The notes under the pieces were generated by a model. It worked only from the letters and a program-made list of their open reading frames with translations, did no database searches and had not been told where the DNA came from. Below, piece by piece: positions 953-15,255 of a stretch of DNA of 33,678 bases (positions are counted from its first letter, which is position 1; each line of letters opens with the position of its first letter). Position numbers and translations under genes: made by a program. The DNA is taken from contig JAKEGM010000049.1 of NCBI GenBank assembly GCA_022615575.1, positions 1-33,678 of the forward strand, written 5' to 3'. The stretch comes from Planctomycetales bacterium (lineage in GTDB: Bacteria; Planctomycetota; Phycisphaerae; Sedimentisphaerales; Anaerohalosphaeraceae).

Positions 953-987
953 ATCCCACGTAAGGCGGCTGGGATTTTGGGCTTTTT
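953..987 (+). terminator. Probable intrinsic terminator after the MipA-like gene
   Basis: ATCCCA (953-958) can pair with TGGGAT (970-975), leaving an 11-base loop. This is followed by a T-rich stretch ending in five Ts (983-987). It sits 28 bases after the stop of the barrel gene and just before the -35 box of the tRNA promoter. The stem is short, so confidence is moderate. Confidence 0.45.
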
Positions 988-988
988 G

Positions 989-1017
989 TTGACAAACCGG
1001 GCGGGGTTATATATCTT
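989..1017 (+). promoter_or_regulatory. Sigma70-type promoter for tRNA-Pro (and queE)
   Basis: A consensus -35 TTGACA at 989-994 is separated by 17 bases from TATCTT at 1012-1017. The predicted start at about 1024 is 12 bases before the tRNA. No other promoter is visible before queE, so the same transcript could carry it. Confidence 0.7.
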
Positions 1018-1035
1018 GCCGCACGTGGCTAACGA

Positions 1036-1110
1036 CGGGGTGTAGCTCAGTTTGGCTAGAGCGCCTGGTTTGGGACCAGGAGGCCGAAGGTTCGAATCCT
1101 TTCACCCCGA
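1036..1110 (+). tRNA. tRNA-Pro (anticodon UGG)
   Basis: A 75-nt cloverleaf. The acceptor stem CGGGGTG pairs with CACCCCG. The D arm starts TAGCTCAG. The anticodon stem CCTGG/CCAGG carries the loop TTTGGGA with anticodon TGG. The T arm contains GGTTCGAATCC. The discriminator base is A, and CCA is not encoded. It lies 28 bases upstream of queE. Confidence 0.97.
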
Positions 1111-1138
1111 TTGACCGCGCCGTCCATCGGATAAAACG

Positions 1139-1816
1139 ATGATTGTCAACGAACTATTCTACTCTCTGCAAGGAGAAGGCCGTCTGGCCGGTGTGCCGAG
1201 CGTCTTTATCCGCTTAGCAGGATGCCCCCTGCGGTGCCATTGGTGCGATACGAAATACGCATGGAACCCCGATGCCGGCCAATCGATGACCCCCGAACAG
1301 ATACTGAAGCAGATTGGCCGTCATCCGACCCGCTATGTAGTTTTAACAGGCGGCGAGCCGCTGGTCCATGAGGGCGCTGCAGAGATTATCGCAGCCGTCA
1401 GCCGGTCTGGATACCATGTGACAATCGAAACAGCGGGTATCGCGTATTGGGCTGATTTGCCGGTAAATTTGATGAGCATCAGTCCAAAGTTATCCAATGC
1501 GCTGTTTCCAACCGCACAGAACTCGACTCTCGCCATGCCTTTGGCGGACCCGAACCTAATTGGCTGCCTGATAGATGCCTATGATTATCAGCTCAAGTTT
1601 GTGGTGGATACTCCCCAAGACCTGGACGAGATTGCAAAATTTCTGGATAAACTTGCACGTGTCGATATGTACAAAGTTTATTTGATGCCGCAGGCATCGA
1701 GAACGGATGAATACCTCGAAAAATCGCGATGGCTGGCGGATTATTGCATACAAACCGGCTTTTCCTTCTCCCCCCGACTTCAAGTTATGCTCTGGGGCGG
1801 CCAGCGAGGCAAATAA
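1139..1816 (+). CDS. queE: 7-carboxy-7-deazaguanine synthase QueE (radical SAM)
   Basis: Radical-SAM enzyme that ring-contracts 6-carboxy-tetrahydropterin to 7-carboxy-7-deazaguanine in queuosine precursor (preQ0) synthesis. It is 225 aa, normal for the family. Visible motifs are an N-terminal NELFYSLQGEG, the cluster-binding C29-x3-C33-x2-C36 (the CX3CX2C spacing) and TGGEP at 70-74 for SAM binding. The start is ATG 1139 without a strong Shine-Dalgarno. It follows tRNA-Pro closely and is probably co-transcribed with it, which places a tRNA-modification enzyme behind a tRNA gene. No queC, queD or queF is present in the window. Confidence 0.95.
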   Translation: MIVNELFYSLQGEGRLAGVPSVFIRLAGCPLRCHWCDTKYAWNPDAGQSMTPEQILKQIGRHPTRYVVLTGGEPLVHEGAAEIIAAVSRSGYHVTIETAGIAYWADLPVNLMSISPKLSNALFPTAQNSTLAMPLADPNLIGCLIDAYDYQLKFVVDTPQDLDEIAKFLDKLARVDMYKVYLMPQASRTDEYLEKSRWLADYCIQTGFSFSPRLQVMLWGGQRGK

Positions 1817-1982
1817 GTCTTCCTATAGGTATGCTTTTTCCTTTAAACCCTTTCTCTAAAACACACCAAAACCAAGCTCTTCTCCCCCTCTCTTTTTGGT
1901 ACACTTTGGCACACACCTCATTGTGGATTATTTAATGCACTTTTGCTTGTTTTTAAGTGCCTGAAATGCAAAGAGTTATGAA

Positions 1983-2055
<73 letters not shown>

Positions 2056-2224
2056 GAGCCATACGGCAAAGTTGGAAAATTAGCAAATCCCCTCCGTCAA
2101 TGCAAGCGAAATTCCTGAAAATCCCAAAATCCTCTGCGGCATTCATCGTACCGTACTGCTTGCAGTTTCAACCCATGTGTATTTTACAACTTTGCGCAAC
2201 ATTGATAATTTCTGAAATTTGGGA

Positions 2225-2252
2225 TTCAAATTGTCCGGCAATAATTTATAAT
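2225..2252 (+). promoter_or_regulatory. Candidate promoter of the ECF sigma operon
   Basis: TATAAT at 2247-2252 lies 16 bases after TTCAAA (2225-2230, four of six consensus positions). It is 32 bases upstream of the preferred ATG at 2285. An ECF operon may also be autoregulated, but an ECF-type promoter cannot be identified by eye here. Confidence 0.45.
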
Positions 2253-2284
2253 GAAGTAACGTATGTACTTTGGTACGCAAAACG

Positions 2285-2911
2285 ATGAATAAAAATGAAA
2301 CCAAATCCTTATCGGACAAAATGTCCGACGCAGAATTGCTCAATCGGTATCGCCAAGGCGATGAATGGGCTTTTAGAGAAATTGTAAACCGTTACAAAAA
2401 CTCACTTTACGCATTTTTGCGCCGGTTCGTCAGCCAGGAAGACATCGTCGAGGATGTATTCCAGGAAACATTCCTTCAGCTTTATACAAGCAGGGACAGC
2501 TTTGATACAGAACGCCCGCTGCGTCCTTGGCTTTTCACCATTGCCGCCAACAAAGCCAAGGATGCTCTGCGGAAGATACAGCGGCAGCCGGCGATGAGCA
2601 TGGGTGCCATTGCGGATGCAGGCGAATTCTCGGTGGACGAGGTCGTCAATATTCTGACATCCTATGAGACCACGCCGGACGAAGAGGTTTCCAGGGAAGA
2701 AACCGCCCAACGGGTCCGGCAGATTATAGCGGATATGCCGGAAAATTTGCGGGGAATTTTAATTTTGGCCTATTTTGAACAATTTTCCTACAAACATATG
2801 GCCGAGATTTTGAGTATACCTATTGGGACGGTCAAGAGCCGGCTTCACACTGCCGTGGTGTTTTTTATGAAAAAATGGAAAGCAGCGAATCGCGGGTTTG
2901 ATCAATCATGA
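2285..2911 (+). CDS. ECF-type sigma70 family RNA polymerase sigma factor
   Basis: About 208 aa from ATG 2285; the frame also opens five codons earlier at TTG 2270. Region 2 lies around residues 25-100, with the characteristic DIVEDVFQETFLQLY helix and RPWLFTIAANKAKDALRK. A linker with an acidic TPDEEV stretch leads to region 4 (about 140-195), with FSYKHMAEIL and GTVKSRLHTA as the helix-turn-helix that recognises the -35 element. Regions 1 and 3 are absent, as in ECF factors. The stop overlaps the next gene's start by four bases (ATGA), so the two are translationally coupled. This is the usual arrangement of an ECF factor with its anti-sigma partner. The signal and regulon are unknown. Confidence 0.93.
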   Translation: MNKNETKSLSDKMSDAELLNRYRQGDEWAFREIVNRYKNSLYAFLRRFVSQEDIVEDVFQETFLQLYTSRDSFDTERPLRPWLFTIAANKAKDALRKIQRQPAMSMGAIADAGEFSVDEVVNILTSYETTPDEEVSREETAQRVRQIIADMPENLRGILILAYFEQFSYKHMAEILSIPIGTVKSRLHTAVVFFMKKWKAANRGFDQS

Positions 2912-3987
2912 ATAAACTGACGCAGGAGCAGCAGCAGCTTATATTGGATTTTTATTTTCGGTGCGGCGAACAGGACGACATTGAGCGCGGTCGGGATTTG
3001 ATTGCGTCAAACCATGAGGCCTCAAGGCTTTATGCAAACCTCGAAATGTCTTTGACAGATCTGGACCATATCAAGTACGAGCCTTGTCCCGATAATTTGG
3101 CTGACCTGACGATTGCACGGCTGAAACTGGCTGCCAAATGTACAACATCATCCAACTCCCGCCTCCATCAATTACTGGAACAACAGAGAGAAGTCCCCCT
3201 GCCATCGGCTCAATCCGCCCGTGCGATATCTCATCCCAAGAAGAATTTTTTCCGCCCGGCGTTTGAAATACTGGCCACTGCGGCCAGCATTACCCTGATT
3301 GCGGGCATCCTCTTTCCTTCGTTTGTATCCCTGCGGCGTCATGCGCAGCAAAACACTTGCGCATACAACCAGGGACAAATCAGCAAGGCCTTTTCGTCGC
3401 TTGCCAGCAATGACGGGGCCCTCGCAAGCACCCGTGTACAAGCCGGGTCGCCCTGGTGGAAAATTGGAGACCAGGGTTCCGAAACGCAATCCAACACGCG
3501 CTATCCCTTCCATCTTGTCAAACAGGGCTATATCGACGGGCGCATGTTTGTATGTCCGGGCGACAAACAAGCCAAATGCCTGACGGACACCCCGGCGCAC
3601 CTTGGTCAACTCAACGACTTCCCCTCCCGCAGCAACATCAGTTACAGCTTTATCCTCTGGCACGACAAAAACAGCAATCCATTCACCGGCAGCCGACGCA
3701 TTATTGCCGGTGATCTGAACCCCGTCTTCAGAAAGATTTTGTTTCAGCAAAATACGTATCGCCAGCGCGATGAATTTGAACAGGTCCTGCTGGATGAAGA
3801 ACTTAAAAAAATACTAAGCGACAATCACCGCTGCCGCGGTCAAAATATTTTATACAGCGACGGAAGCATTGAATTCACCAAAAGCCGAATCATCAACGGC
3901 GATGATATCTTTACCATTCATGGCGTGGACATCTACATCGGCCGGGAAATCCCCGCCAGTGTCCTGGACACCTTCCTGACTCCTTAG
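2908..3987 (+). CDS. Putative anti-sigma-like membrane protein with pseudopilin-like exterior
   Basis: A 359-aa protein encoded in an ATGA overlap with the ECF sigma gene, so the context suggests an anti-sigma factor. Residues 1-110 would be cytoplasmic and helical; I see no zinc-type Hx3Cx2C motif. One membrane segment lies at about 118-141. What follows resembles planctomycete DUF1559/pseudopilin proteins: a helix after the membrane segment (CAYNQGQISKAFSSLASNDG), FVCPGD (214-219) and near the C-terminus HRCRGQNILYSDGS (307-320), close to the H-X9-DG signature but with ten residues between H and D. The FEILATAASITL stretch echoes a prepilin helix without an obvious prepilin cleavage site, and it is internal. 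The anti-sigma role is inferred from position. A related alternative is a surface assembly protein. Confidence 0.7.
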   Translation: MNKLTQEQQQLILDFYFRCGEQDDIERGRDLIASNHEASRLYANLEMSLTDLDHIKYEPCPDNLADLTIARLKLAAKCTTSSNSRLHQLLEQQREVPLPSAQSARAISHPKKNFFRPAFEILATAASITLIAGILFPSFVSLRRHAQQNTCAYNQGQISKAFSSLASNDGALASTRVQAGSPWWKIGDQGSETQSNTRYPFHLVKQGYIDGRMFVCPGDKQAKCLTDTPAHLGQLNDFPSRSNISYSFILWHDKNSNPFTGSRRIIAGDLNPVFRKILFQQNTYRQRDEFEQVLLDEELKKILSDNHRCRGQNILYSDGSIEFTKSRIINGDDIFTIHGVDIYIGREIPASVLDTFLTP

Positions 3988-4133
3988 CCGGACAGTCCCG
4001 CAAACTCAAGCATCCCCCCGGGGGCGAGCGCGGCAGGGTTCTTACAGCAGCGTACAAGGAACTAAAACCATCTAACGCACCGTTCCCAACGGAGCCGCTC
4101 GTGGGGGGCTAAAATGCCGCAAGGATTGCATCT

Positions 4134-5504
4134 TCAGATGAATCGGGAAAAGACGCCTTTTACAGCGGTGAGGATTTTTTTACAGCGGACCGCCCGTTGG
4201 AGACAGCGGCATCGGGCCTGCCAGGGCTGTCGGCCCCGATGCAGTCGCCGGCACTTCTGAACACACTCGTCGGCCTGAAGCCATTTTTCAAGCTTATAGT
4301 ACAGCCAGCCGGCAGCCAGCAGCCAATCGGGCCGGGATGAATTAACACACAGCGCCTGTTCCACACAGTCCACCGCTCCTTTATAATCGCCGTGGATCGC
4401 CAGCGCCATCCCCAGTCCGTAAAAAGCCCCATCGTGGGTGCCGGCCCCGTTAAGCACCTGCATAAAGCAGTTGCTGGCATCCGTTACCAAACCATTCTGC
4501 AGAAACAGCCGCCCCATCGCCAACAGCACATCGACATCCTCAACCCCCAACTGGAATTCTTCTCGCAGCAGTGAAATGGCCCTGTGTTTGTCTCCCTGTT
4601 TGAGGCAAAACTCGGCCATGCGAAACCGCGGCCCAATTAACGACCCGTCGCCCTGATGGGCACGGCGATAGCACCCGTGCGCCTGTTCGGCGGCTCCCCG
4701 GATGCGATAGACCTCACCCAGGTAGAATTGAGCCGCAGCGAAGGTTTTGTCAAATTCAAGAATCCGACTGAATTTCTCCTTAGCCCCTTCCATGTCGCCG
4801 CTTTCCAGCAGGAACAGCCCAAAATCAAGAATGACCTCCAAATCCATCGGATTTTTCCGCAATTCGATTAAAAATTCCTCCTGGGCGCGGCCGCCCTGCC
4901 CGCTGACCCAACAGGCCTGTGCCAGCCGGTAGTGGATTTGCGGATGATTGGGGTCGAGCTGGGCGCATTTATCCCAGCACCAGATCGCCCGTTCATAGCA
5001 GCCGCGGGTGAACAGCGAATTGCCGATGTTATAAAAACAGAGGGGGCATTCCGGGCTAATCTGCTGAGCCATATAAAACATCTGTTCGGCTCGTTCGTGC
5101 TGCTCCATTTCCGTATAAACGATGATGCGGTTGCAGTAGGCCGCCTCAAATGCCGGGTCAATTTGTTCAATCCGCTCAAAAAACTCGATGGCTCTGTCAT
5201 ATTGGCCGGCCCGGGTGCAATCCACCCCCAGACAATTCAAAATCTCGACATCGCCCGGCGCAAATTCAAGGGCGTGTTGGTAGAATTCGATGGCTTTTTC
5301 ATACTGTTCCAGGGCATCCAACGTCAGCCCCATGTCAAAATACCACTCGCCGTGTTCCGGCCTCAGGCGAATCGCCAGGTCGAGCTTTTCCAGTGCCTTC
5401 TGCATGTGGCCCTCTTCGTACAGCCCATAGGCCTCCACAGCCAACTCCTCGGCCTGATCCCACTGATGCGAGGTTCCATCAAACTCATCTTGCCAATCTA
5501 ACAT
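4134..5504 (-). CDS. Tetratricopeptide-repeat protein
   Basis: A 456-aa protein made almost entirely of TPR units from about residue 18 to 420. Recognisable repeats include EHGEWYFDMGLTLDALEQY, CLGVDCTRAGQYDRAIEFF, CFYNIGNSLFTRGCYERAI, AQFYLGEVYRIRGAAEQA and GAFYGLGMALAIHGDYKGAV, each with the W/L-G-Y-A-F-P spacing of the fold. No signal peptide or membrane segment is seen, so it is probably cytoplasmic. The C-terminus (about 425-456) is basic and Cys/Arg rich. It is a protein-interaction scaffold with no visible catalytic domain. ATG 5504 has GGAG five bases upstream. It is monocistronic and divergent from ribH. Confidence 0.85.
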   Translation of the reverse strand: MLDWQDEFDGTSHQWDQAEELAVEAYGLYEEGHMQKALEKLDLAIRLRPEHGEWYFDMGLTLDALEQYEKAIEFYQHALEFAPGDVEILNCLGVDCTRAGQYDRAIEFFERIEQIDPAFEAAYCNRIIVYTEMEQHERAEQMFYMAQQISPECPLCFYNIGNSLFTRGCYERAIWCWDKCAQLDPNHPQIHYRLAQACWVSGQGGRAQEEFLIELRKNPMDLEVILDFGLFLLESGDMEGAKEKFSRILEFDKTFAAAQFYLGEVYRIRGAAEQAHGCYRRAHQGDGSLIGPRFRMAEFCLKQGDKHRAISLLREEFQLGVEDVDVLLAMGRLFLQNGLVTDASNCFMQVLNGAGTHDGAFYGLGMALAIHGDYKGAVDCVEQALCVNSSRPDWLLAAGWLYYKLEKWLQADECVQKCRRLHRGRQPWQARCRCLQRAVRCKKILTAVKGVFSRFI

Positions 5505-5628
5505 GCATGCTCCGCTGCGTTGTGTTTTGTCTTGATATAAGGGTCCGTCACAGGTATATCGTCAGAAAAATACCCCGGCTTAGGCGGGCTTCGGGATTTT
5601 GGCGTTTTTTTGCCGGACCGGAGTTTTT

Positions 5629-5670
5629 CTGGCATTTGAACCCTTAACCTCATATAATCTCAGAGGTTAA
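5629..5670 (+). promoter_or_regulatory. ribH-nusB-parA promoter with palindrome around the -10
   Basis: CTGGCA (5629-5634), 18 bases, then a perfect TATAAT (5653-5658). The -10 lies inside a perfect inverted repeat, TTAACCTC (5644-5651) and GAGGTTAA (5663-5670), with an 11-base spacer. A protein bound to this dyad would block the promoter. ribH begins about 130 bases downstream. I do not see the conserved core of an FMN riboswitch in the leader. Confidence 0.5.
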
Positions 5671-5798
5671 AGATGTTTTTTCGGGCCGACGGCGTAAAGC
5701 GGATAAATTGTCGATGACTTTTGCCCGCCCGTCCGATAAGATAGTGATGGTTGTTTTGCTTTTCCAATGAGAAAATGGCTTTTTACGGAGTTTAACAG

Positions 5799-6263
5799 AT
5801 GGTTCAGGAAATTAAAGGTCAATTAACCGCCGGAAAAAACAAATTCGCAATCGTGGTCAGCCGGTTTAATGAATTCATCACCAGCAAACTGGTGAGCGGG
5901 GCTGTCGATACGCTCCAGCGTCACGGCGCCGCCGACAATCAAATCACCGTCGTATGGGTGCCGGGAACCATCGAGATTACCGTGGCAGCCAAAAAACTGG
6001 CCGAAAGCGGCAAGTACGCCGCAGTCCTTTGCCTGGGTGCGGTGATTCGTGGTTCGACCAGCCATTACGACTATGTCTGCCAGCAAATCTCACGCGGCGT
6101 CGGGCAAATCAATTACGATACCAGCGTTCCGGCGATTTTCGGGGTCTTGACCTGTGATACCCTTGAACAGGCCATTGAACGCGCCGGCTCCAAACAGGGA
6201 AACGCCGGAGTCAATGCCGCGATGGCTGCAATGGAAATGGCCAATCTGATGGGGCAGCTGTAA
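5799..6263 (+). CDS. ribH: 6,7-dimethyl-8-ribityllumazine synthase RibH
   Basis: Condenses 5-amino-6-ribitylaminouracil with 3,4-dihydroxy-2-butanone-4-phosphate, the penultimate step of riboflavin synthesis. It is 154 aa, the normal length. Family motifs are VVSRFNEFI near residue 20, VPGTIEI (54-60), the GAVIRG loop (80-85) followed by catalytic-type H89, and GVLT (115-118). GGAG eight to nine bases before ATG 5799 supports the start. Twelve bases separate it from nusB, a common bacterial pairing. No other rib gene is in the window. Confidence 0.97.
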
Positions 6264-6275
6264 CCGCCGGAATGG

Positions 6276-6752
6276 ATGAAATTAACACTCGTCGAAGGAA
6301 CACCTTTGGATCGCAGAACGATAGCCAGAGAACTCACGATGCAGGCTCTTTGCCAATTGGATGTACAAGGCAGCGATGTCATACCGATGCTGCGCCTCTT
6401 TTTCCGTGAGAATACCGATGACCCGATGACGGTGAATCTTGCGGAAAAATGGACACTCGATGCATGGGAGGTTGTTCGGGCATCCGACGACCTGATTGCG
6501 CAAGTGGCGGTGCGATGGAAGCTGTCGCGGCTGTCGCATGTGGATCGGGCCATTCTGCGGATGTCCGTCTATCAGCTGCGATACTGTTCCGATATTCCCT
6601 GCAAAGTCGTCATCAATGAGGCCATCGAAATCGCCAAAAAATTCAGCACGGAACAATCACCCCGCTTTGTCAACGGCGTACTGGATGCCGTCCTTAAAAC
6701 ACTTCAGACCCCCCCTGTATCGTCATCCTCTGCGGAGGGATCATGCGGCTGA
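6276..6752 (+). CDS. nusB: Transcription antitermination factor NusB
   Basis: RNA-binding partner of NusE (S10) in antitermination complexes at boxA sites of rRNA operons. It is 158 aa, all-helical, with the N-terminal RRTIARELTMQALCQLD signature and the C-terminal VVINEAIEIAKKF...PRFVNGVLDAVLK block typical of NusB. The start ATG 6276 is weakly supported by a GGA; an upstream ATG at 6272 is in another frame. The end overlaps parA by ten bases. A short Ser/Ala tail follows the domain. Confidence 0.95.
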   Translation: MKLTLVEGTPLDRRTIARELTMQALCQLDVQGSDVIPMLRLFFRENTDDPMTVNLAEKWTLDAWEVVRASDDLIAQVAVRWKLSRLSHVDRAILRMSVYQLRYCSDIPCKVVINEAIEIAKKFSTEQSPRFVNGVLDAVLKTLQTPPVSSSSAEGSCG

Positions 6753-7693
6753 GAACAATTGCAGTTCTGAATCAAAAAGGCGGCGTGGGCAAAACCACAA
6801 CCGTCGTCAATATGGCTGCCGCCCTGGCCCTCAAAGGCCGGCAGGTGCTGGTCATCGATATGGACCCGCAGGCCCACCTGACCATTCACCTCGGCGCCGA
6901 CCGCGACGCCGATGCTCCGGGGACATACGAGGTGCTTACCGAAGGCGCTTCATTAACGGATGCCGCACGGTCGGTGCGGGAAAACCTGTGGCTGCTGGGC
7001 GCCAGCATTGACCTGGTGGGCGCCGAAGCCGAACTGGTAACCGAAGTAGGCCGTGAAATCATCCTCCGGCAGGCGCTAGAAACCGTACGGAGCCGATTTG
7101 ACTATGTGATTATCGATTGCCCGCCGTCGCTGGGCTTATTGACGCTCAATGCGCTGGCTGCCGTCGACGAAGTGGTTATCCCGATTCAGCCGCATTTTCT
7201 GGCCCTGCAGGGCTTCAGCCGGCTGCTGCAAACGATTACGCTTGTTCAGACCCGTATCAATCCTGCGCTGCGGGTATCGGCCATTTTAATGTGCATGTTT
7301 GACAGCCGCACCAGCTTATCCAACGAGGTCTGTCAGGATATTGAGCGTTTCTTGTCGGCGGCGCGCAGCAGCGAGCAGCCCTGGTCAAGGGCCGCCGTTA
7401 TCCCGGTGCATATCCGGCGCAACATTAAACTGGCCGAAGCCCCCAGCCACGGCCAAACCATTTTTGAATACGAACCAACCTGTAATGGCGCCGCCGATTA
7501 CCAGGCGGTGGCCGACTTCATCGACTATCCTGCACCGGCCGCAGAATCGGCCCCTGTCGCGGATAGGGAACAACCTGCGCTTCACATCGATACGACAGCA
7601 CCCATCGAAGTATCGGCGAATCCCGCCAATACCGCCAACGCACTGCAAACCGAAGCCCAACCGGCAGCCGAAGAAAAGCCGGCGGGCGTTTGA
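6743..7693 (+). CDS. parA: ParA/Soj-family ATPase
   Basis: Cytoplasmic P-loop ATPase of the ParA/MinD class, 316 aa. The deviant Walker A is KGGVGKTT (residues 12-19), with DMDPQAHLT after strand 2 (Walker A-prime region) and the Walker B region VIIDCPPSLG. GGEG-like spacing is replaced by a good Shine-Dalgarno, GAGGG, just before ATG 6743, inside the nusB end. The last 55 or so residues are an Ala/Pro/Glu-rich low-complexity tail not needed for the fold. No parB lies next to it, so it may be an orphan ParA that positions some other cargo, or the parB partner may be elsewhere. It is the last gene of the ribH operon. Confidence 0.9.
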   Translation: MRLRTIAVLNQKGGVGKTTTVVNMAAALALKGRQVLVIDMDPQAHLTIHLGADRDADAPGTYEVLTEGASLTDAARSVRENLWLLGASIDLVGAEAELVTEVGREIILRQALETVRSRFDYVIIDCPPSLGLLTLNALAAVDEVVIPIQPHFLALQGFSRLLQTITLVQTRINPALRVSAILMCMFDSRTSLSNEVCQDIERFLSAARSSEQPWSRAAVIPVHIRRNIKLAEAPSHGQTIFEYEPTCNGAADYQAVADFIDYPAPAAESAPVADREQPALHIDTTAPIEVSANPANTANALQTEAQPAAEEKPAGV

Positions 7694-7696
7694 GAG

Positions 7697-7782
7697 TAAA
7701 AAGAAAAGGCTGCTTCGTGGATGATGAGAAGCAACCTTTTGTATTGAAGACCGCTCTGGCGAACGATCTTATCATTCAATTG
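7697..7782 (-). ncRNA. Candidate small RNA between parA and the E2-like gene
   Basis: A minus-strand promoter (TTGACA, 17 bases, AATAAT; 7789-7817) predicts a start near 7782. About 40 bases later comes a hairpin (7704-7740): a 13-bp stem AAAAGGTTGCTTC/GAAGCAGCCTTTT with one G-U pair and an 11-base loop, then TTTTCTTTTT. Read on the plus strand the same stem has a C-A mismatch and a poor T tract, so the hairpin suits the minus strand. No convincing ORF lies inside. The product would be about 85 nt. Alternatively, the hairpin is simply the terminator of the E2-like gene, with a fortuitous promoter. Confidence 0.45.
7704..7740 (-). terminator. Strong intrinsic terminator, best on the minus strand
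   Basis: A 13-bp stem with 11-base loop, followed on the minus strand by TTTTCTTTTT. It can end minus-strand transcripts (small RNA or E2-like mRNA). It also lies 11 bases after the parA stop, and its imperfect plus-strand form may serve parA. Confidence 0.75.
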
Positions 7783-7788
7783 CATTCA

Positions 7789-7817
7789 ATTATTGCCGCG
7801 GCTGTGCCTGTTGTCAA
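7789..7817 (-). promoter_or_regulatory. Consensus promoter driving the intergenic small RNA
   Basis: On the minus strand TTGACA (7817-7812) and AATAAT (7794-7789) are 17 bases apart. They lie between the E2-like stop codon and the terminator, with no gene of known type downstream before the terminator. Confidence 0.55.
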
Positions 7818-7891
7818 CACTTTTTTCACAAAACACCCCCTGTTTATCAAAAATTTCACGCATTTGCGCACACGGCGCAGACAGGATTCTA

Positions 7892-8596
7892 TTAATGCGT
7901 CAGTTCCGTTGGGTTTTGCAGCAAATCCACGACCTTCCGCAAAAAGCCGGCGGCGTAAAACTCATCCACAACCCGCTGGTCAAACGCCATCGCCACATAC
8001 ATCATCTTTCGTATCTGTACGCCGTCAGCAGCGGGCATGACGGCTTCTTCGATAGTGCCGATGGAGATAATTCCCGTCGCCGACGGCGGGCTGATGGCGT
8101 AAAACGACTCGATGCCGTACATTCCCAGACCGGTCAGAACCATACTGGCCCCGTCGAAATCATCCGGCAGAAGTTTGCCCGAACGCGCTTTTTTGAGAAG
8201 TTCTTCGCTTTCTATGGCCGTCTGGGCCAGGTTTTTATGCTCCATTTCCTTGAGAACCGGCACCACCAGTCCCTGCGGCGCAGCCACCGCAAAACCGATG
8301 CCGATGTGTTCAGCGATGACCCGGTGGGCGCCGGAGGCATCCATCGAAGCGGCCACCAGGGGAAACTCTTTAACGGCTCGGGCAATAGCATAGATAAAAA
8401 AGTCGTTGGTCGTTGCCCGCACGCCTGCGGTACGGCAGCAACGCTTGCGCACCGCGACCAGTTCGGTTAAATCCGCCCGCATCCGCAGATAAGCGCTGGG
8501 CTTTGTCCGCTTGGACTGATGCATATAAGCGCCGATCAGTTTCTGTATCCGCGTCAACGGCAGCCGGTTGTGTTCAGGCATCTGGAGCAAATTCAT
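7892..8596 (-). CDS. Stand-alone 2-oxoacid dehydrogenase acyltransferase (E2) catalytic-domain protein, active site altered
   Basis: A 234-aa protein that is only the chloramphenicol-acetyltransferase-like catalytic domain of E2 subunits. There is no lipoyl domain and no E1/E3-binding domain. Recognisable blocks are LTRIQKLIGAYMHQSK at the N-terminus, FAVAAPQGLVVPVL (about 102-115) and SMVLTGLGMYGIESF (151-165). The usual catalytic DHRxxDG reads D206-Q-R-V-V-D-E212: the His is replaced by Gln and the Gly by Glu. The codon is CAG on the minus strand, so this is not a translation slip. The protein is probably not a normal acyltransferase; a structural, regulatory or different catalytic role is possible. 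It has its own promoter and no E1 or E3 genes nearby. Confidence 0.85.
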   Translation of the reverse strand: MNLLQMPEHNRLPLTRIQKLIGAYMHQSKRTKPSAYLRMRADLTELVAVRKRCCRTAGVRATTNDFFIYAIARAVKEFPLVAASMDASGAHRVIAEHIGIGFAVAAPQGLVVPVLKEMEHKNLAQTAIESEELLKKARSGKLLPDDFDGASMVLTGLGMYGIESFYAISPPSATGIISIGTIEEAVMPAADGVQIRKMMYVAMAFDQRVVDEFYAAGFLRKVVDLLQNPTELTH

Positions 8597-8637
8597 CCTT
8601 TCACGTTCTTGTTCCTGGTTCCAAACAGATAACGGTT

Positions 8638-8666
8638 ATTGTAAGCCCTGCAGAGCGGCAATTCAA
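8638..8666 (-). promoter_or_regulatory. Promoter of the E2-like gene
   Basis: TTGAAT (8666-8661), 17 bases, TACAAT (8643-8638) on the minus strand. The predicted start is near 8631, about 35 bases before ATG 8596. Confidence 0.65.
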
Positions 8667-8677
8667 GTACAATTGTA

Positions 8678-8706
8678 TTGCTTAATTGTCCTGACAGGTT
8701 TATAAT
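8678..8706 (+). promoter_or_regulatory. Promoter of the yqaE-DUF2959 operon
   Basis: TTGCTT (8678-8683), 17 bases, perfect TATAAT (8701-8706). The expected start is near 8713, 36 bases before the Pmp3-like gene. Confidence 0.65.
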
Positions 8707-8748
8707 TGGATATCAAACTGTGACAGACGTGTTTATAAAGGAGATAAA

Positions 8749-8943
8749 ATGCGATACTTTCTGGCCATTGTGCTGCCTCCGCTGGCGGTTCTGCTTTGCG
8801 GCAAACCGTTTCAGTTTTTACTGAATATCGTGCTGTGGCTGTGTTTTTGGATTCCCGGCTCTATTCACGCCCTTTTTGTCGTACACAGCCACCTGGCGGA
8901 TAAACGTACCCGCAAAATCGTCGATGCCATTAAAAGCAAATAA
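8749..8943 (+). CDS. YqaE/Pmp3 family small membrane protein
   Basis: A 64-aa, two-helix inner-membrane peptide of the Pmp3/YqaE family. The first hydrophobic helix (about 2-18) contains the conserved LPPLAV...G motif. The second (about 22-46) runs through LNIVLWLCFWIPGSIHAL, matching the family's N-x2-L-x3-G-xxxIHA pattern. The C-terminus is polar and basic. Family members are stress-induced proteolipids that affect membrane potential. A strong AAGGAG before ATG 8749 fixes the start. It forms an operon with the DUF2959 lipoprotein 48 bases downstream. Confidence 0.92.
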   Translation: MRYFLAIVLPPLAVLLCGKPFQFLLNIVLWLCFWIPGSIHALFVVHSHLADKRTRKIVDAIKSK

Positions 8944-8991
8944 GTCGTTTGCTTCAAATAAAAATGTGTCAACAACCCCAGGGAGAATTCT

Positions 8992-9660
8992 ATGAAACAA
9001 ACCACACAGTATATCGGGGGCCTCTTGATAATCAGCGGGACACTGTTGACAGGGGCCGGCTGTCAAAAAGTATATTACGGCACGATGGAGAAATTCGGTG
9101 TGCACAAACGGGATATCCTGGTGGATAACGTCGCCGAAGCCCGCGACGCCCAGACCGAGGCCAAGGAGCAGTTTGCCTCCGCGCTGGAGGAATTCAGCGC
9201 CGTCGTGAACTTCCAGGGCGGCAAACTGGAGGACAAATACAAAATCCTCAACGCCGAATATGAACAAAGCAGGAAAAAGGCGGAGGCCGTCCATGAACGC
9301 ATCGGGGACGTCAAACGGGTTGCCAAGGCCCTGTTTGACGAATGGGAAAAAGAACTGGATCAGTACACAAGCGATACCCTTCGCAAGTCGAGTCAGCTCA
9401 AATTTAAGCAAACGCAGGAACGCTATGAGACGCTAATCGCCGCGATGGAACGCGCCGAGTCCAAAATCGCGCCCGTGCTGGCGGCCTTCGGCGACCAGGT
9501 GCTGTTCCTCAAGCATAACCTCAATGCCCAGGCCGTCGCTTCGCTGCAAAGTGAATTGACGACAATGGAAAGTGAAATCGGTACGCTGATCCGAGAAATG
9601 GAACGCTCCATCAATGAAGCCGACGCCTTCATTCAGGAAATGACGCAGCAGGAATCGTAA
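8992..9660 (+). CDS. DUF2959 family lipoprotein
   Basis: A 222-aa predicted lipoprotein with an N-terminal hydrophobic stretch and lipobox GAGC (Cys24). The mature part is a long alpha-helical, coiled-coil-rich protein. It matches the DUF2959 pattern: YYGTMEKFGVHKRDILVDNV, DAQTEAKEQFASALEEF, the LFDEWEKELDQY block and a highly conserved VLFLKHNLNAQAVASL. The function of this family is unknown. AGGGAG before ATG 8992 supports the start. It probably shares the Pmp3-like gene's promoter and ends before a strong inverted repeat. The pairing of the two genes suggests an envelope-stress role, which is inference. Confidence 0.92.
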   Translation: MKQTTQYIGGLLIISGTLLTGAGCQKVYYGTMEKFGVHKRDILVDNVAEARDAQTEAKEQFASALEEFSAVVNFQGGKLEDKYKILNAEYEQSRKKAEAVHERIGDVKRVAKALFDEWEKELDQYTSDTLRKSSQLKFKQTQERYETLIAAMERAESKIAPVLAAFGDQVLFLKHNLNAQAVASLQSELTTMESEIGTLIREMERSINEADAFIQEMTQQES

Positions 9661-9679
9661 CCGGGGCTGAAAATTACAA

Positions 9680-9706
9680 GGCCGACACGACAGGGTCGTG
9701 TCGGCC
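9680..9706 (+). terminator. Hairpin after the DUF2959 gene
   Basis: A perfect 12-bp stem, GGCCGACACGAC and its complement, with an AGG loop. It begins 20 bases after the stop codon. There is no T tract, so it may act by pausing, Rho, or as a 3'-end stabiliser. Confidence 0.55.
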
Positions 9707-9773
9707 CAACGATATATTGACCCGCACTTAAACGGCGCGGGAACCGTTGATGGTCAAAAGCAACTCACCAAAA

Positions 9774-10133
9774 TTACTCGGCAAACTGTACCGCTACGCC
9801 GATTGAGCCGGCCTGCAGGATTTGATTGCGTTCCACCCGCAGAACACGGGCGTGTTTGATGCGGGCATACTGGCCTTTCTGTTTTGCCAGGGTCGGGGTG
9901 CGCGGGAAATTAATTTCAATTTCATGGCCGGGCCGGATAGGAGCGGTCATAGGCACGGTAAAGAATGCCCCGCCCTTGCTGACATTGACGCTCTTGCCGT
10001 TAAAGAAACGGTTGGCCTTCGGCAGCCAGATGCTGACCGGCCAGCTTAAATCCGAGCGAATATCCTGACGCTGTTCAACAATCGTGCTCTCCATAGTTCC
10101 ATTCTCCATAAATTTAGTGAGCTTAATCGCCAT
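9774..10133 (-). CDS. PilZ-domain protein (c-di-GMP binding)
   Basis: A 119-aa single-domain PilZ protein. The c-di-GMP binding residues are visible: R22-x3-R26 (RQDIR) and N50-x-S52-x-x-G55 (NVSKGG). A beta-barrel pattern ends in GVAVQF. It would respond to the second messenger and act on a partner through its barrel. The start is uncertain: ATG 10133 has no Shine-Dalgarno, whereas ATG 10094 (residue 14) has GGAG nine bases upstream and leaves the binding motif intact. It lies downstream of the two LptF/LptG genes on the same strand but about 210 bases away, with a separate candidate promoter. Confidence 0.9.
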   Translation of the reverse strand: MAIKLTKFMENGTMESTIVEQRQDIRSDLSWPVSIWLPKANRFFNGKSVNVSKGGAFFTVPMTAPIRPGHEIEINFPRTPTLAKQKGQYARIKHARVLRVERNQILQAGSIGVAVQFAE

Positions 10134-10182
10134 GGATTCATTATCGTCAATGTCAAATTGGATAATTTAGGGTATTTGGGAA

Positions 10183-10211
10183 AAATAATTTGTTTTTTAT
10201 AAAAATGTCAA
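10183..10211 (-). promoter_or_regulatory. Possible PilZ-gene promoter
   Basis: TTGACA (10211-10206) with a 17-base spacer to TTATTT (10188-10183) on the minus strand. The -35 is perfect and the -10 is poor. The surrounding 208-base gap (10134-10341) is AT-rich and shows no other gene. Confidence 0.35.
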
Positions 10212-10341
10212 ACAGGATGGATTTTTTGCCTGTTTCGGATTTTTTATCGGGCATATTTTTGCCGAAAAATTCTGCCGGCCTGTTAAATCATCGTCCGATA
10301 AATAATATGGCTCAAAAATGGGGGCTTGCGAAGGGATGCGA

Positions 10342-11484
10342 TCAGGTTCTCATCGAATCGATTTCAATCAGGGCAACGGGGAAGAAAATAAAAATCGGCG
10401 CCCATGCCCACAGTGCCGGGCGCACCTGTCCGAAAACAATCTCCGCCGCAAAGAGTTTGCAGGCAAACACCACGATAAAGCAGCTCAGGGTCGTCATGAA
10501 GCTGATGATGATCGCATTTTTCATTGCCTTGGGATCACGGCAGACCAGTACAGGCAGCGCTACCATCAGCATAATCAGGTTGACCAGCGGGTCTGTAATC
10601 CGGCTGTGTTTCTGCAACGCCAGCTCGGCCATGTCGGTGCGGCGCGTGCCCGGGTTGTTTTCCATCGCTGTCAACTGGCCAAGACTCAGCAGCAACTTGA
10701 AACCCTCCTGCCGTCGGACGGGAATATCGGCGGCGGTCAGCTTGCTCGGGTAAAAATCGATGGGCTGGATTTGCTGCAGCGGCGCAACCTCCTGGTCGTC
10801 TTCGGTCAGCTGCATCCATCGCCCGCCGGTCAGCGTCCACCCCTCCCTTTGGCTGTCGTACACCGCCGTATCCGCCTGGATTTTTCCGGTAATACGATAA
10901 ATATCTTCCTGACCGCTGAGGGGTTCCCGCAAAATAATCAGCGGTTCGTGAAGCGTCCGGCTTTTTTCCTCGTAGCTGCGGCTGCAAAACAAACTGCCCC
11001 GGTCGTCCCCGATAAACCAGACATCATACGTGCCTGCATACGATAATTCATCATGCTTGCGGATCAGCTCGTACGCATACCGGGGAATTACCGCTTCCTG
11101 ATCGACCACCATCAGCCCCGTCAGAAACAGCGACAGAAACAGAATCGGCGCCAGGATGCGTTTTAAGCTCGTACCCGAGGCCATCACGGCGATTAACTCA
11201 TTATTGCGGGTCATACGGGCCAGCGAAAATACCGCCGCAACCACCATAATCATGCCAGCCATGTCCTTGTACCACAAACAGCACCGAATCCCGTAAAACC
11301 GCATGACCGTCCACGCCACATCGATCCGCCTCAGGTTAAGCTGCGGATTGTCGGTCCGCAATTCGGCAAACTCATCCAGGTGGACAAACAGGTCGATCGT
11401 CAGAAACATCCCGACCATCACACACAGCGCGATGAAATAGCCAAACAGAAAATTTCGTGCGATATAGCGGTCCAGAATCTTCAT
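10342..11484 (-). CDS. LptF/LptG family LPS-export permease (second copy)
   Basis: A 380-aa inner-membrane protein of the YjgP/YjgQ (LptF/LptG) family, which with LptB2 extracts lipopolysaccharide-type lipids for the transenvelope bridge. The order is typical: N-terminal helices (about 10-30, 70-90, 105-127) with LDRYIARNFLFGYF at the start, a periplasmic beta-jellyroll region (about 130-290), then three C-terminal helices (about 305-325, 330-350, 357-375). The RNNELIAVMASG segment corresponds to the conserved coupling-helix region (NNEL...ASG). Length is normal. It starts 18 bases after the larger paralogue, so both form one operon. No lptB is in the window. Confidence 0.92.
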   Translation of the reverse strand: MKILDRYIARNFLFGYFIALCVMVGMFLTIDLFVHLDEFAELRTDNPQLNLRRIDVAWTVMRFYGIRCCLWYKDMAGMIMVVAAVFSLARMTRNNELIAVMASGTSLKRILAPILFLSLFLTGLMVVDQEAVIPRYAYELIRKHDELSYAGTYDVWFIGDDRGSLFCSRSYEEKSRTLHEPLIILREPLSGQEDIYRITGKIQADTAVYDSQREGWTLTGGRWMQLTEDDQEVAPLQQIQPIDFYPSKLTAADIPVRRQEGFKLLLSLGQLTAMENNPGTRRTDMAELALQKHSRITDPLVNLIMLMVALPVLVCRDPKAMKNAIIISFMTTLSCFIVVFACKLFAAEIVFGQVRPALWAWAPIFIFFPVALIEIDSMRT

Positions 11485-11502
11485 GGTTCGTCCAGGCTTC
11501 CT

Positions 11503-13119
11503 TCAGGTTCGCAGCAGTTTACGATAAACCCACACCGTCACAATCGCCAGCACTGCCAGCCCGACCCACATCACCAGCACCCCTGTCGCAGCCGGCGTGG
11601 CAGGATTTTTGGTCAGTTCTTTTCCCGACAGGATAAACATTACCAGCACGCCGCCGGGAATGGCACTGGCTCCAAAGGCGCTGAGCATGTGGCCGCCGCG
11701 GAATTGGATTCCCAGGGCAATCCCCGTCAAAATCAGCGCCACACACCCCAGCCCCAGCACCAGCCGCGAATGAATCTCGGCATAAATTTCCTTGTCCACC
11801 CGCCCAAGCCGATCCTGAAGCTCCCGACAGGCGTTCTTCAATCGTTCGCTGACGGCAACCGGCCAATCGGACTGCCCCCCGCCAACCTCGGCCAGCTTTG
11901 TCAGAAGCTCGTCGGCCGTCACCATCGCCGCCAAGTCTTTTGGAAACTGAATATTATTGACATATTTCTGCAGTGACCGTCCCTTCGGAGCGCCCGGACC
12001 CGGGCGCTGCCAGGTCGGACTTTCGAGCGTCATCTCCAGCCGCAAACTCGAGCCATCGCCTTCCAGCATCAGAGAACCCTTGCTGTCGGTGTCATATTGA
12101 ACCGTTAAACTGTTACGCAGGGCATCAATCTGCAAGAGCCGGATCGGCCCATCCAGTTCCATTCGGCTGGGCTTTTTAGGATCGATCCGACAGGCGCCAA
12201 CACTGAGTCGGTACACCCGCATCTGATCCGCATCTTCCAATTCGTAGTACTCGCGGCTCTGTTCCATCCGCCGGCCGATATCCCACGCCAGCAGTTCCAT
12301 CGCCGCCTGACCCCGCACCTGTATCGCCTGCTGACGAATGGGAAAATAGTTCATCTTGTCAAGCTGAATGCGTTTGAGCTGTTCGAGTTTTTGAAACTTG
12401 ATCTTGTCGGTCAGCAGCGATGCAAACCGCGTCGAAATCGACACATTCCCGATAAACGCCGGGGCAACCTCGTCAAGCCGATGGGTATTTTGCGACACAA
12501 TGGTGGCCTCGTTGTAATCGCGATATGTTTCGATGCGGACTCGCGCTCGCTCGGCGGTCACCAGGCGGGCCGGCTGGCCCTCGGGCAAATCCACAATCAC
12601 AACGCCTTCCAGCAGATTGGTCTTGGGGTCGGCATAGTCGGCAAACAGCTTATACCGACTCTGCGGAAGCGCATAAAAGCCCTTCCGCTGGATATTACGG
12701 AACAGAATCTGCTCGGCGTTGGCCTTGACGCTGCGCTCGCTGCGGTGCACAAACGCCGGAGCCACATAGAAGCTCAGCGTCAGGTTGGCCGCCGCCACCA
12801 GAATCGACAGCATCAGTCCCGGATAAATCAGCGTCCACATGCTGATGCCGCTGGCCCGGCAGGCATCCAGCTCCCGGTCCGCCGCAAACCGCCCGTAAAT
12901 CAGCGACGCAGCGAACAGCGCGCTCATCGGCAGCACAAACGTCAGCGAAATCGGCAGAAAATACCCCAGCAGATGGATAATCTGCGCCGGCCCAACGCCG
13001 AAATCCAGCAGCCAGCGGACCAGCAGCCCCAAGCTGAGCATCAGGGTCAGCGCAATCGTCGCCAGAACAAACACGCGGAACAGCTCGCGAAAGATATATC
13101 TGTGCAGCGTAAAAATCAT
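11503..13119 (-). CDS. LptF/LptG family LPS-export permease, enlarged
   Basis: A 538-aa YjgP/YjgQ family permease, the upstream partner of the next LptF/LptG gene. N-terminal helices at about 14-36, 46-75 and 95-118 bracket ADRELDACRASG, the coupling-helix region. Three helices close the C-terminus (about 445-530). The part between is much longer than in ordinary LptF (about 360-390 aa total), because the periplasmic domain carries roughly 150 extra residues including helical stretches before the last helices. ATG 13119 has AAGGG just upstream, and it lies after the predicted transcription start, so the longer frame reaching 13182 is not used. Confidence 0.9.
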   Translation of the reverse strand: MIFTLHRYIFRELFRVFVLATIALTLMLSLGLLVRWLLDFGVGPAQIIHLLGYFLPISLTFVLPMSALFAASLIYGRFAADRELDACRASGISMWTLIYPGLMLSILVAAANLTLSFYVAPAFVHRSERSVKANAEQILFRNIQRKGFYALPQSRYKLFADYADPKTNLLEGVVIVDLPEGQPARLVTAERARVRIETYRDYNEATIVSQNTHRLDEVAPAFIGNVSISTRFASLLTDKIKFQKLEQLKRIQLDKMNYFPIRQQAIQVRGQAAMELLAWDIGRRMEQSREYYELEDADQMRVYRLSVGACRIDPKKPSRMELDGPIRLLQIDALRNSLTVQYDTDSKGSLMLEGDGSSLRLEMTLESPTWQRPGPGAPKGRSLQKYVNNIQFPKDLAAMVTADELLTKLAEVGGGQSDWPVAVSERLKNACRELQDRLGRVDKEIYAEIHSRLVLGLGCVALILTGIALGIQFRGGHMLSAFGASAIPGGVLVMFILSGKELTKNPATPAATGVLVMWVGLAVLAIVTVWVYRKLLRT

Positions 13120-13153
13120 AAAATCCCTTGTCGTACGATAATAAACCACTGTT

Positions 13154-13182
13154 ATTGTGGCACAAATGCCCCCCTTTGACAA
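13154..13182 (-). promoter_or_regulatory. Promoter of the lptF/lptG operon
   Basis: TTGTCA (13182-13177), 17 bases, CACAAT (13159-13154) on the minus strand. The predicted start near 13147 leaves a leader of about 28 bases. Confidence 0.6.
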
Positions 13183-13254
13183 CAGGAATTTTGCCGATTT
13201 TGTCCGGCAGCGATAACGGCACCGCTTCCCGCGCGTGTTCGGCCATTAAACAAA

Positions 13255-13281
13255 AAACCCGGCAGCAGAAACACCGGGTTT
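13255..13281 (-). terminator. Intrinsic terminator of the GH172 gene
   Basis: AAACCCGG pairs with CCGGGTTT across an 11-base loop. Read on the minus strand it runs into a T tract (13257-13252). It lies 53 bases after the stop of the DUF2961 gene and just before the lptF promoter. Confidence 0.75.
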
Positions 13282-13333
13282 GTCTTTGAGCAATGGCGGA
13301 TTACGCAAGGCAATAACATTTTACCGCCGGGGT

Positions 13334-14467
13334 TCACTTTGAGGTCAAATCGGCTGTCCGCTCCGTCAGCGACGGAAAAACCCCAAGCGGCGCGCTGGGT
13401 ATCGGTTCATACCAGAACGCCGCAGCAGACCAATCGTCCTGCCGTTCATACAGTCCATCCTTCCAGCCAATCTGCTGAATGGTAATATAGCACTCCTTCT
13501 CCCAGTAAATCGGGTCCGGCAGATGCCACCGATACATGCTGATAAACCCGTCCTTATTCAAACTGCATCCATGCAGATAAAACGGCGTGTGCTGCACACC
13601 GTAAGACAGGCAGACATAATCCTCAGACCCGGTCCCGCAAAGCGTCGGAAATTCCCGGTCGCCGTCACTGTAAATTTTTATCTCGCCTTCGCCCCACCAG
13701 TTCGAGTCAAATGAGCGTATCCCAAGCACCGCACCCATATAACGGCCCTTGCCGACACGCTTTTCCATAATCACAAAATCCTTTTTCATCGTTGTCGGAT
13801 TCTCCCGGCGAAAACTCACATGAAGACGACCCAACTCCTTCGGGTGCCGGTCATTAATCGTATAATCAACCTGGTACCACAACGTAATGGCTTTATCCGA
13901 TTCATTCGTAAGCGTAAGTCGGGCCCTTTCTTCAAAAGGCATGGGAAGCCAGAAATTCAATGCGGTAAGTTCGCCGACAGAATGCACCGCCGACTGATAC
14001 GGAGTAACCTTGGCATGAGCAAGACCCATGAAATCTCCCAGCGGACACTCAATGCTCGGATGTTCCTGTTCCTCCCAATACGCCCGGATAACAGCGATTC
14101 GAAGAGCCATTCTGTTTTGGTCGATCGTCCCCGCCATCCATATATGGCGGATGGTCCCGGGGCCGGCAATATCACAAAGGTCCGCCGTCTGGCCGGGAGC
14201 AATTGTTATGTTGGGCGCTCCCTTGCGGCCAACACCGAGATGACTTGCCGCCATCCCGCTTTTGCCTCGTTCGCCCGTCGGGTTTTCTCCTGAAATCGCC
14301 CTGGTTTCAAGCCCCGCATCCAGCCGATAAGGCATGCTGCTTAATGTCCTGTCGGCATCAGACCTTCCTCCGCAGCCCGGCAGAGCTGCACACGCCGATA
14401 CCAAAGCCGTTAAGGCAAAAATGCTCATTATTGAATTCGCAGACCTCATACCACTACTCTTTTCCAT
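13334..14467 (-). CDS. DUF2961/GH172 family lipoprotein
   Basis: A 377-aa exported protein with a hydrophobic signal (about 10-30) and a lipobox reading LPGC (Cys32), so probably lipid-anchored. The body matches DUF2961, now glycoside hydrolase family 172, which includes fructofuranosidases, difructose-anhydride synthases and arabinofuranosidases. The two acidic motifs of the family are present: WWGEGE (257-262) and GTGSEDY (278-284). IAGPGTIRHIW (100-110) is the N-terminal family signature. Substrate cannot be read from sequence; a furanose-containing glycan is the family expectation. Members assemble as oligomeric rings. It has an ATG at 14467 with GGAAAG upstream, and its own terminator. 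Confidence 0.88.
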   Translation of the reverse strand: MEKSSGMRSANSIMSIFALTALVSACAALPGCGGRSDADRTLSSMPYRLDAGLETRAISGENPTGERGKSGMAASHLGVGRKGAPNITIAPGQTADLCDIAGPGTIRHIWMAGTIDQNRMALRIAVIRAYWEEQEHPSIECPLGDFMGLAHAKVTPYQSAVHSVGELTALNFWLPMPFEERARLTLTNESDKAITLWYQVDYTINDRHPKELGRLHVSFRRENPTTMKKDFVIMEKRVGKGRYMGAVLGIRSFDSNWWGEGEIKIYSDGDREFPTLCGTGSEDYVCLSYGVQHTPFYLHGCSLNKDGFISMYRWHLPDPIYWEKECYITIQQIGWKDGLYERQDDWSAAAFWYEPIPSAPLGVFPSLTERTADLTSK

Positions 14468-14541
14468 AAATTTCTTTCCATTTTAATCATCTGTTTCCTG
14501 TATGCGTTGTTCACTTTTTACTATCGTGTTTTGTCAACAAA

Positions 14542-15255
14542 TCAAATGCCTATTGGGGCGGGGTGTTCACCACAGGTCAGAGTTTCAGCCGATGGGCAGT
14601 ACGGAGCGATGGGGCAATGGGGACAGTCGGGCTTGCGGGCGATGCAGATGTTGCGGCCGTGCCAGATGAGGTAATGGGAGAACATTGTCCAGCCGCCGAA
14701 TTTGGTTTTGGGGACAATCTCCATCAGGTCGAACTCCAGCTTGACCGGATCGCTGTTTTCCGACAACCCAAGCCGGCCGGACAGGCGAATGACATGCGTG
14801 TCGCAGGTAATGCCGGGGATACCGAAGGCGTTTCCGAGGATGCAGTTGGCGGTCTTTCGGCCGGCGCCAGGCAGGGTCAGCAGTTCGTCCATTGTCCGCG
14901 GAACCTTGCCGCCGAAGTCATCGATAATCTTCCGTGCGGCGCCGCGGATGTTTTTGGCCTTGTTGCGATAGAAGCCGGTCGAGCGGATATCCCGCTCCAG
15001 TTCCTCCTGCGGAACGTTTAGATAATCCTGCGGACACTTATATTTTTCAAATAGGTCTTTGGTGACGATATTGACCCGTACATCCGTGCACTGGGCCGAC
15101 AGCACAACCGCCACGAAGAGGTTCCACGGGTCATCCCAGTTCAGCGCGATTTTGGCATCGGGGTAGGTCTTTTTCAAAATCGGCAGGATTTTCAAGACCC
15201 GTTCCTTCGCCTCGGCCGGATCGACCTTGAGTTTTGACTTTTTCGCCTTTGCCAT
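14542..15255 (-). CDS. nth: Endonuclease III (Nth), iron-sulfur DNA glycosylase/AP lyase
   Basis: Removes oxidised pyrimidines and nicks AP sites in base-excision repair. It is 237 aa, slightly longer than usual owing to a Lys-rich N-terminal extension and a short tail. The helix-hairpin-helix LPGAGRKTA contains catalytic K134, and D152 sits in CDTHVIRL. The 4Fe-4S loop has C204-x6-C211-x2-C214-x5-C220. The promoter lies directly upstream so that transcription may begin at or next to the ATG (a leaderless message). It is separated by 74 bases from the downstream GH172 gene and may be co-transcribed with it. Confidence 0.97.
   Translation of the reverse strand: MAKAKKSKLKVDPAEAKERVLKILPILKKTYPDAKIALNWDDPWNLFVAVVLSAQCTDVRVNIVTKDLFEKYKCPQDYLNVPQEELERDIRSTGFYRNKAKNIRGAARKIIDDFGGKVPRTMDELLTLPGAGRKTANCILGNAFGIPGITCDTHVIRLSGRLGLSENSDPVKLEFDLMEIVPKTKFGGWTMFSHYLIWHGRNICIARKPDCPHCPIAPYCPSAETLTCGEHPAPIGI

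Follow-up and report, generated by a model that had tools for sequence, protein, structure and literature searches.

Anti-sRNAs of enterohaemorrhagic Escherichia coli, which are reportedly phage-encoded and Hfq-associated, are said to act on another small RNA by base pairing, and the terminator loop of LhrC, reportedly a multicopy RNA of Listeria that regulates an mRNA, is said to have been discussed in pairing. Unlike these anti-sRNAs, the two RNAs considered here, RNA A and RNA B, occur as one copy per genome and are conserved throughout a lineage; their kinship with LhrC was compared through Rfam only. The nearest counterpart in kind is found in cyanobacteria. An interaction of Yfr1 with Yfr2 was proposed earlier (PMC2518516), and Yfr2 is reported to block Yfr1 and Yfr10 from a target (PMC6778093). 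Base-pairing small RNAs are hardly known in planctomycetes, and a table in a 2022 review counts 8 distinct annotated sRNAs across the PVC group as a whole (PMC9029176). Rhodopirellula-1, a published planctomycete motif, appears in a table of PMC2864571 without an Rfam accession and is outside the Rfam comparison. Among open-licence papers, the literature search found no paper on RNA A and none for “Sedimentisphaerales” together with “small RNA”.

RNA A lies in the window, the whole 33,678-nucleotide stretch of DNA that was analysed, and RNA B lies elsewhere in the same genome, before the pyrK-pyrD genes. The comparisons described below make it likely that RNA A is a stand-alone, trans-acting small RNA whose terminator loop pairs with that of RNA B, the two acting as a decoy pair. 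RNA A (about 85 nt) would be transcribed from a sigma-70-type promoter, and the open apical loop of its intrinsic-terminator hairpin would expose the 8-nt seed UCAUCCAC. RNA B would have a promoter of its own, TTGACA/TATACT, immediately before pyrK-pyrD. Contact between the two loops would pair UCAUCCAC with GUGGAUGA, which RNA B carries in its terminator loop, and one of the two RNAs would sequester or control the other. Transcription, loop-loop pairing in the cell, the direction of control and an effect on pyrK or on mRNAs are what we infer.

Like Yfr1, Yfr2 and Yfr10, as these are presented in PMC6778093 and PMC2518516, RNA A and RNA B are broadly conserved and would interact via exposed conserved motifs, nearly complementary in the cyanobacterial RNAs; a third RNA, RNA C, has the motif of RNA A as Yfr10 has that of Yfr1 (PMC6778093). 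There are also differences from the published description. The present RNAs belong to another phylum and have another sequence; the Yfr1/Yfr10 motif ACUCCUCACAC is absent from RNA A of the window. Their motifs match exactly over 8 nt and are both placed in intrinsic-terminator loops, RNA B is tied to pyrK, and RNA C, unlike Yfr10, is a 3′-UTR terminator. In addition, the interaction of Yfr2 with Yfr1 and Yfr10 was measured (PMC6778093), whereas that of RNA A with RNA B is predicted from sequence. The pair resembles Yfr1/Yfr2 in kind and is set apart from it by its sequence, its location and the way it employs terminator loops. If the proposed pairing is true, it would add to Yfr1/Yfr2 a second, independent example of two small RNAs that keep complementary motifs throughout a lineage.

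The convergent gap that houses RNA A on the minus strand spans 198 bases (7694–7891), between parA (6743–7693, plus strand; Pfam AAA_31/ParA) and an E2-like gene (7892–8596, minus strand; Pfam 2-oxoacid_dh acyltransferase catalytic domain). The first-pass annotation had placed a minus-strand promoter in this gap, and it was confirmed there, with the −35 box TTGACA at 7812–7817 and the −10 box AATAAT at 7789–7794, separated by a 17-nt spacer. It matches 11 of 12 consensus letters and ranks first among 32 promoter-like sites in positions 1–20000 of the window, against a mean of 15.7 sites when the same part is shuffled. The predicted RNA A (about 85 nt, minus strand) extends over 7698–7782, its start being placed from the −10 box and its end from the T tract. 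The 13-bp terminator hairpin, outlined by folding and by the alignment of 49 copies, occupies 7704–7740 (minus strand) and is followed by the T tract CTTTTT (7698–7703, minus strand) within the tract TTTTCTTTTT, which ends at 7698; hairpin and tract had both been annotated. The reported strand asymmetry also holds: all 13 stem pairs are intact in the minus-strand RNA, and the plus-strand stem is interrupted. Three features had been overlooked, namely a 9-bp 5′ hairpin (7748–7769, minus strand; folding and genus alignment), the invariant loop motif and the partner RNA B. The minus-strand fold of 89 nt has a minimum free energy of −30.6 kcal/mol, compared with a mean of −13.4 kcal/mol for shuffled sequences (z = −6.3; none of 200 shuffles as good). 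The predicted seed UCAUCCAC (7717–7724, minus strand), recognised from the alignment and from its unpaired probability of 0.95–1.00 in the predicted fold, lies in the loop of the terminator hairpin.

The conservation of the locus was studied in relatives. A blastn search with the 207-base element against 40 genomes (that of the window and 39 relatives) gave matches of 72–93% identity over 27–133 bases that span the terminator hairpin. They come from the genus, from further genera of the family and, with G028, from one other family; read in context, the matched loci show that the whole unit recurs. The final alignment comprises 49 copies, one per genome, from three families of one planctomycete order: f1, the family of the window’s genome, f2 and f6. 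We assume the name Anaerohalosphaera for f1 and, presumably, Sedimentisphaera applies to f4. The loop motif UCAUCCA is kept in all 49 copies and is followed by C in 48 and by U in G012; for G013 the loop TCATCCAC was taken from the alignment, and a look-alike upstream of it was set aside. The bases flanking the 8-nt block are variable, as are those flanking the corresponding block of RNA B. TTGACA is exact in 47 of the 49 copies (the exceptions being G023, TTGGAA, and G046, TTGGCA), with a −10-like box 16–19 nt downstream.

In the 11-bp core of the terminator stem, 98.3% of 538 cells are paired, and the compensatory changes that the first-pass annotation had proposed to look for in relatives are present. 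There are 24 double-change cells, compared with a shuffled mean of 6.3, and none of 500 shuffles reached this value; the number of pairs with double changes (five; 69 of 500 shuffles) and the further pair types (263 of 500 shuffles) are unexceptional. The 5′ hairpin varies between genera. Within the genus of the window, 98.2% of its cells are paired in eight genomes, and two doubly changed pairs among these eight copies, a count equalled in 53 of 500 shuffles, are moderate evidence for it. In the f2 copies no 5′ hairpin is clear, and the loop is longer, with the motif on its 3′ side. The alignment indicates that RNA A has its own conserved promoter and an intrinsic terminator under selection, together with a conserved, predicted-unpaired seed for which there is a complementary conserved candidate partner.

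The gap could also be read as an ordinary convergent-gene gap in which the hairpin is only the terminator of the E2-like gene, or a bidirectional one, and the promoter is fortuitous. The hairpin is indeed a good intrinsic terminator, and in 25 of the 40 genomes compared, all of them f1, the coordinates place the E2-like gene no more than 400 nt from RNA A. Against this stand the loop motif and the −35 box, conserved in three families, and 14 genomes that keep the RNA A unit where the E2-like gene is not adjacent (G005, G012, G013, G015, G021, G023, G028, G040 and G046, and in f2 G024, G030, G034, G038 and G057); G048 is undecided, as both are at contig ends. A terminator of the E2-like gene and nothing else was ruled out on these two grounds, and this whole reading is extremely unlikely. 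An alignment in which the boxes vary freely and the hairpin is kept only as a terminator had been named as the refuting pattern, and the opposite pattern was found. The annotation had left two origins for the roughly 85-nt RNA; the independent one stands, and origin solely as the 3′ end of the E2-like mRNA falls away. Since TTGACA is conserved and the unit is kept where the E2-like gene is not adjacent, the comparison supports RNA A as an independent small-RNA gene (INDEPENDENCE of the E2-like gene) and speaks against its being no more than the 3′ part of the E2-like mRNA.

A role of RNA A as a cis-acting leader or attenuator was also rejected, because the downstream ORF is mostly on the other strand. 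By crude ORF picks, the nearest one runs opposite to RNA A in 40 of 48 copies; in the window it is the convergent parA. Upstream of the ribH-nusB-parA cluster, the window carries a TPR-repeat gene (4134–5504, minus strand), and a similar-looking TPR gene was seen by eye directly downstream of RNA A in f2 (G160, G038). The wider region seems to be shared with f2 despite the changed gene order.

RNA A was found in 37 of 39 genomes of f1, 11 of 13 of f2 and the single genome of f6 in an order-wide search of 161 genomes in which borderline matches were read, with one strong match per genome. Outside these families the same search gave only weak matches, in f3 (one genome), f4, f5 and f7, and no strong match in f5. 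None of the weak matches inspected (those of f7 and 17 others) has the motif in a hairpin loop. Class-wide and phylum-wide searches at E ≤ 1e-4, with stricter filters than the order-wide one, found RNA A in 37 of 397 and 7 of 392 genomes, respectively, all of them f1, f2 or f6. Scanning named genome contigs with a pattern yielded 17 records, comprising 16 planctomycete MAGs and one chance match. Several candidates were rejected: L139, from a “Desulfovibrio” MAG, is a chance match without T tract or promoter; L054 has no promoter and a poor stem; L105, L106 and L122–L126 are weak model matches without loop motif or promoter; and in the 17 weak matches L387–L403 the motif is never in a hairpin loop, L392 and L401 having it tens of bases from the hairpin. 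Viral contigs gave one pattern match for RNA A and 19 for RNA B, none with a full stem and T tract. Identity with a known Rfam RNA was rejected as well, as Rfam 15 gives RNA A no family above threshold (nothing at gathering score, weak matches of at most 19.5 bits). RNA A is thus well supported at the gene level as a new, lineage-wide small-RNA gene, with a new RNA as its predicted pairing partner.

The complement of the RNA A loop, GTGGATGA, occurs at 114 sites in the window’s genome, of which 94 distinct ones were inspected: 51 match coding sequence in frame and 7 in another frame, 30 are antisense to genes, and 6 are intergenic or near a start. A hairpin scan of 184 oriented 8-mer contexts of this genome placed just two sites, those of RNA B and RNA C, in strong terminator-type loops. 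RNA B (G000:C1:8084–8167, in L148 1390–1560) is a unit of promoter, RNA and terminator, with a TTGACA/TATACT promoter in its locus. The genes after it match the Pfam families of dihydroorotate dehydrogenase B Fe-S binding and of dihydroorotate dehydrogenase, i.e., pyrK-pyrD. Its terminator loop contains GUGGAUGA (G000:C1:8136–8143, L148), the exact 8-nt complement of UCAUCCAC.

The layout of RNA B, in relatives too, consists of the promoter, a hairpin GCGGC-GCCG, a conserved CCGUGG, and a T tract preceded by the terminator CUUCCGGA-loop-UCCGGAAG. Pairing in the stems reaches 98.8%, and 6 double-change cells compare with 1.6 in shuffled alignments; GUGGAUGA is invariant in 25 aligned copies, the bases on both sides varying. 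In 51 of the 53 copies that a script read, TTGACA stands no more than 130 nt upstream of the core. At E < 1e-17 the RNA B model finds one copy per genome in 34 of 39 genomes of f1, 13 of 13 of f2 and the single genomes of f3 and f6, and GTGGATGA is present in all 49 copies of this set, which is the one outside f5. Compared with Rfam, RNA B gave no family match and two weak matches only.

The family f5 has ten weaker matches to RNA B (E from 1e-11 to 8e-3), which share the architecture CCGUGG-CUUCCG...CGGAAG-T and have unrelated loops; the motif is found in none of the ten (eight by script, two by eye). In G027 and G036 their place just before pyrK was borne out by coordinates. A long extra hairpin in the first loop and a different terminator loop were also observed in the f5 copies.

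The two 8-nt blocks are invariant parts of two separately conserved RNAs. The chance of such a match was estimated with a home-made hairpin score in one genome, that of the window, where 27 of 154782 tested positions were wholly within a terminator-type loop (9 distinct hairpins, including that of RNA A); about 0.03 loop sites would be expected among the 184 contexts, and two were observed, RNA B and RNA C. This estimate bears on the view that the loops of RNA A and RNA B are protein-binding sites and their complementarity fortuitous. That RNA A and RNA C have a common loop motif in otherwise different stems agrees with such sites, but both terminator loops hold an invariant 8-nt block, each the exact reverse complement of the other. 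This and the low number of loops expected by chance argue against such sites, and we regard protein binding as a very unlikely explanation.

The 8-mer duplex UCAUCCAC/GUGGAUGA has a calculated energy of −11.0 kcal/mol. With the 13-nt loop of the window’s RNA A, motif-bearing copies of RNA B give −13.0 to −14.5 kcal/mol (mean −13.4, n = 45) and the f5 copies −6.4 to −10.9 kcal/mol (mean −7.6, n = 8). In RNA B, GUGGAUGA is partly engaged in weak pairs inside the loop, with an unpaired probability of 0.14–0.82 at five of the eight positions. Because both blocks are invariant, covariation between RNA A and RNA B is unusable inside the clade: a compensatory change of the two loops was not found there, and the only change is that of G012, whose RNA A loop UCAUCCAU retains pairing with its own RNA B through a tolerated G-U pair.

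The distributions of the two RNAs do not coincide fully. RNA B keeps GTGGATGA without a detected RNA A in G016, G025, G053 and G154 (84–95% complete), and a loop-plus-T-run pattern for RNA A found nothing in these genomes or in G146 and recovered the control G015. Assembly gaps may explain some of the genomes with motif-bearing RNA B and no RNA A, but hardly all. The reverse, RNA A without a detected RNA B, is seen in G003, G020, G044 and G047 (57–89% complete). The contrast presented by f5, where RNA B is without the motif and RNA A was not found, may be a single evolutionary event. With an 8-nt contact, short partners and a sister family that has a motif-less RNA B and no detectable RNA A, the pair is experimentally tractable.

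Titration would be the simplest role for the decoy pair, since each RNA has a good promoter and start codons show no enrichment of perfect-match sites. A compatible and not exclusive reading makes RNA A mainly a regulator of mRNAs via GUGGAUGA near ribosome-binding sites, with RNA B as its sponge, or else makes RNA B the regulator and RNA A and RNA C its sponges. It has a precedent in Yfr1/Yfr2, RNAs that also have mRNA targets (PMC6778093). In the window’s genome, however, of the 94 perfect 8-nt sites only L214 falls among the first codons of a gene, and L200 coincides with a doubtful start; with crude ORF picks, GTGGATGA near start codons shows nothing beyond chance. Such regulation is plausible, falling somewhat short of probable.

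The place of RNA B suggests another possibility, that it is a transcription attenuator of pyrK which RNA A modulates in trans via the terminator loop. By coordinates, all 29 genomes in which both were located have RNA B directly before pyrK, and no promoter with at least 10 consensus letters was found between them in the f1 loci scanned, so that control of pyrK termination by RNA A would be possible in f1. However, termination can hardly be prevented by a loop contact that requires the terminator to have formed already, and an unsystematic look at RNA B recognised no alternative antiterminator. Several f2 genomes, moreover, have TTGACA and a TATAAT-like box between RNA B and pyrK. These boxes, seen by eye (e.g., in L283, L335 and L336) at 17–20 nt from each other, are unusual in spacing but recurrent, and were unscored by the strict scan. 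Taken together, attenuation appears unlikely, and the decoy pair remains the preferred explanation.

RNA C is the terminator located 3′ of a 29-codon, Lys-rich ORF (G000:C51:22930–22956, minus strand, L186). Its loop UCAUCCACAUUU bears the A-type motif UCAUCCAC, as do L237, L240, L241 and L349. The ORF before it is small and rich in Lys and Ala (MAKKVAKKKVAKKK...), is histone-H1-like in composition and varies in length between species. The arrangement is also found in G001, G002, G004 and G005, and a dedicated pattern, applied to 159 genomes, recovered it only in these four and the window’s genome, all five of the window’s genus. Among 20 weak second matches to RNA A (L237–L256), three have TCATCCA and represent RNA C, and 17 are without it. 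RNA C looks like a younger addition. Tentatively, and with more doubt than confidence, RNA A and RNA C, each displaying UCAUCCAC, may be rivals for GUGGAUGA on RNA B, the pyrK leader, forming a three-RNA network of intrinsic-terminator loops. If this is true, terminator hairpins would double as addressable RNA-RNA contact sites, and pyrimidine synthesis would be tied to a chromosome-type protein, the Lys-rich, histone-like small protein whose ORF precedes RNA C.

Other features of the window include a very strong terminator-like hairpin of 13 pairs with a 3-base loop (9707–9679, minus strand), located between the DUF2959 and PilZ-domain genes, a tmRNA gene (28348–28700, minus strand) and two tRNA genes (1036–1110, plus strand, and 1983–2055, minus strand). 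An AddB-like protein with ADDB_N and PDDEXK_1 domains is encoded at 19602–23120 on the plus strand.
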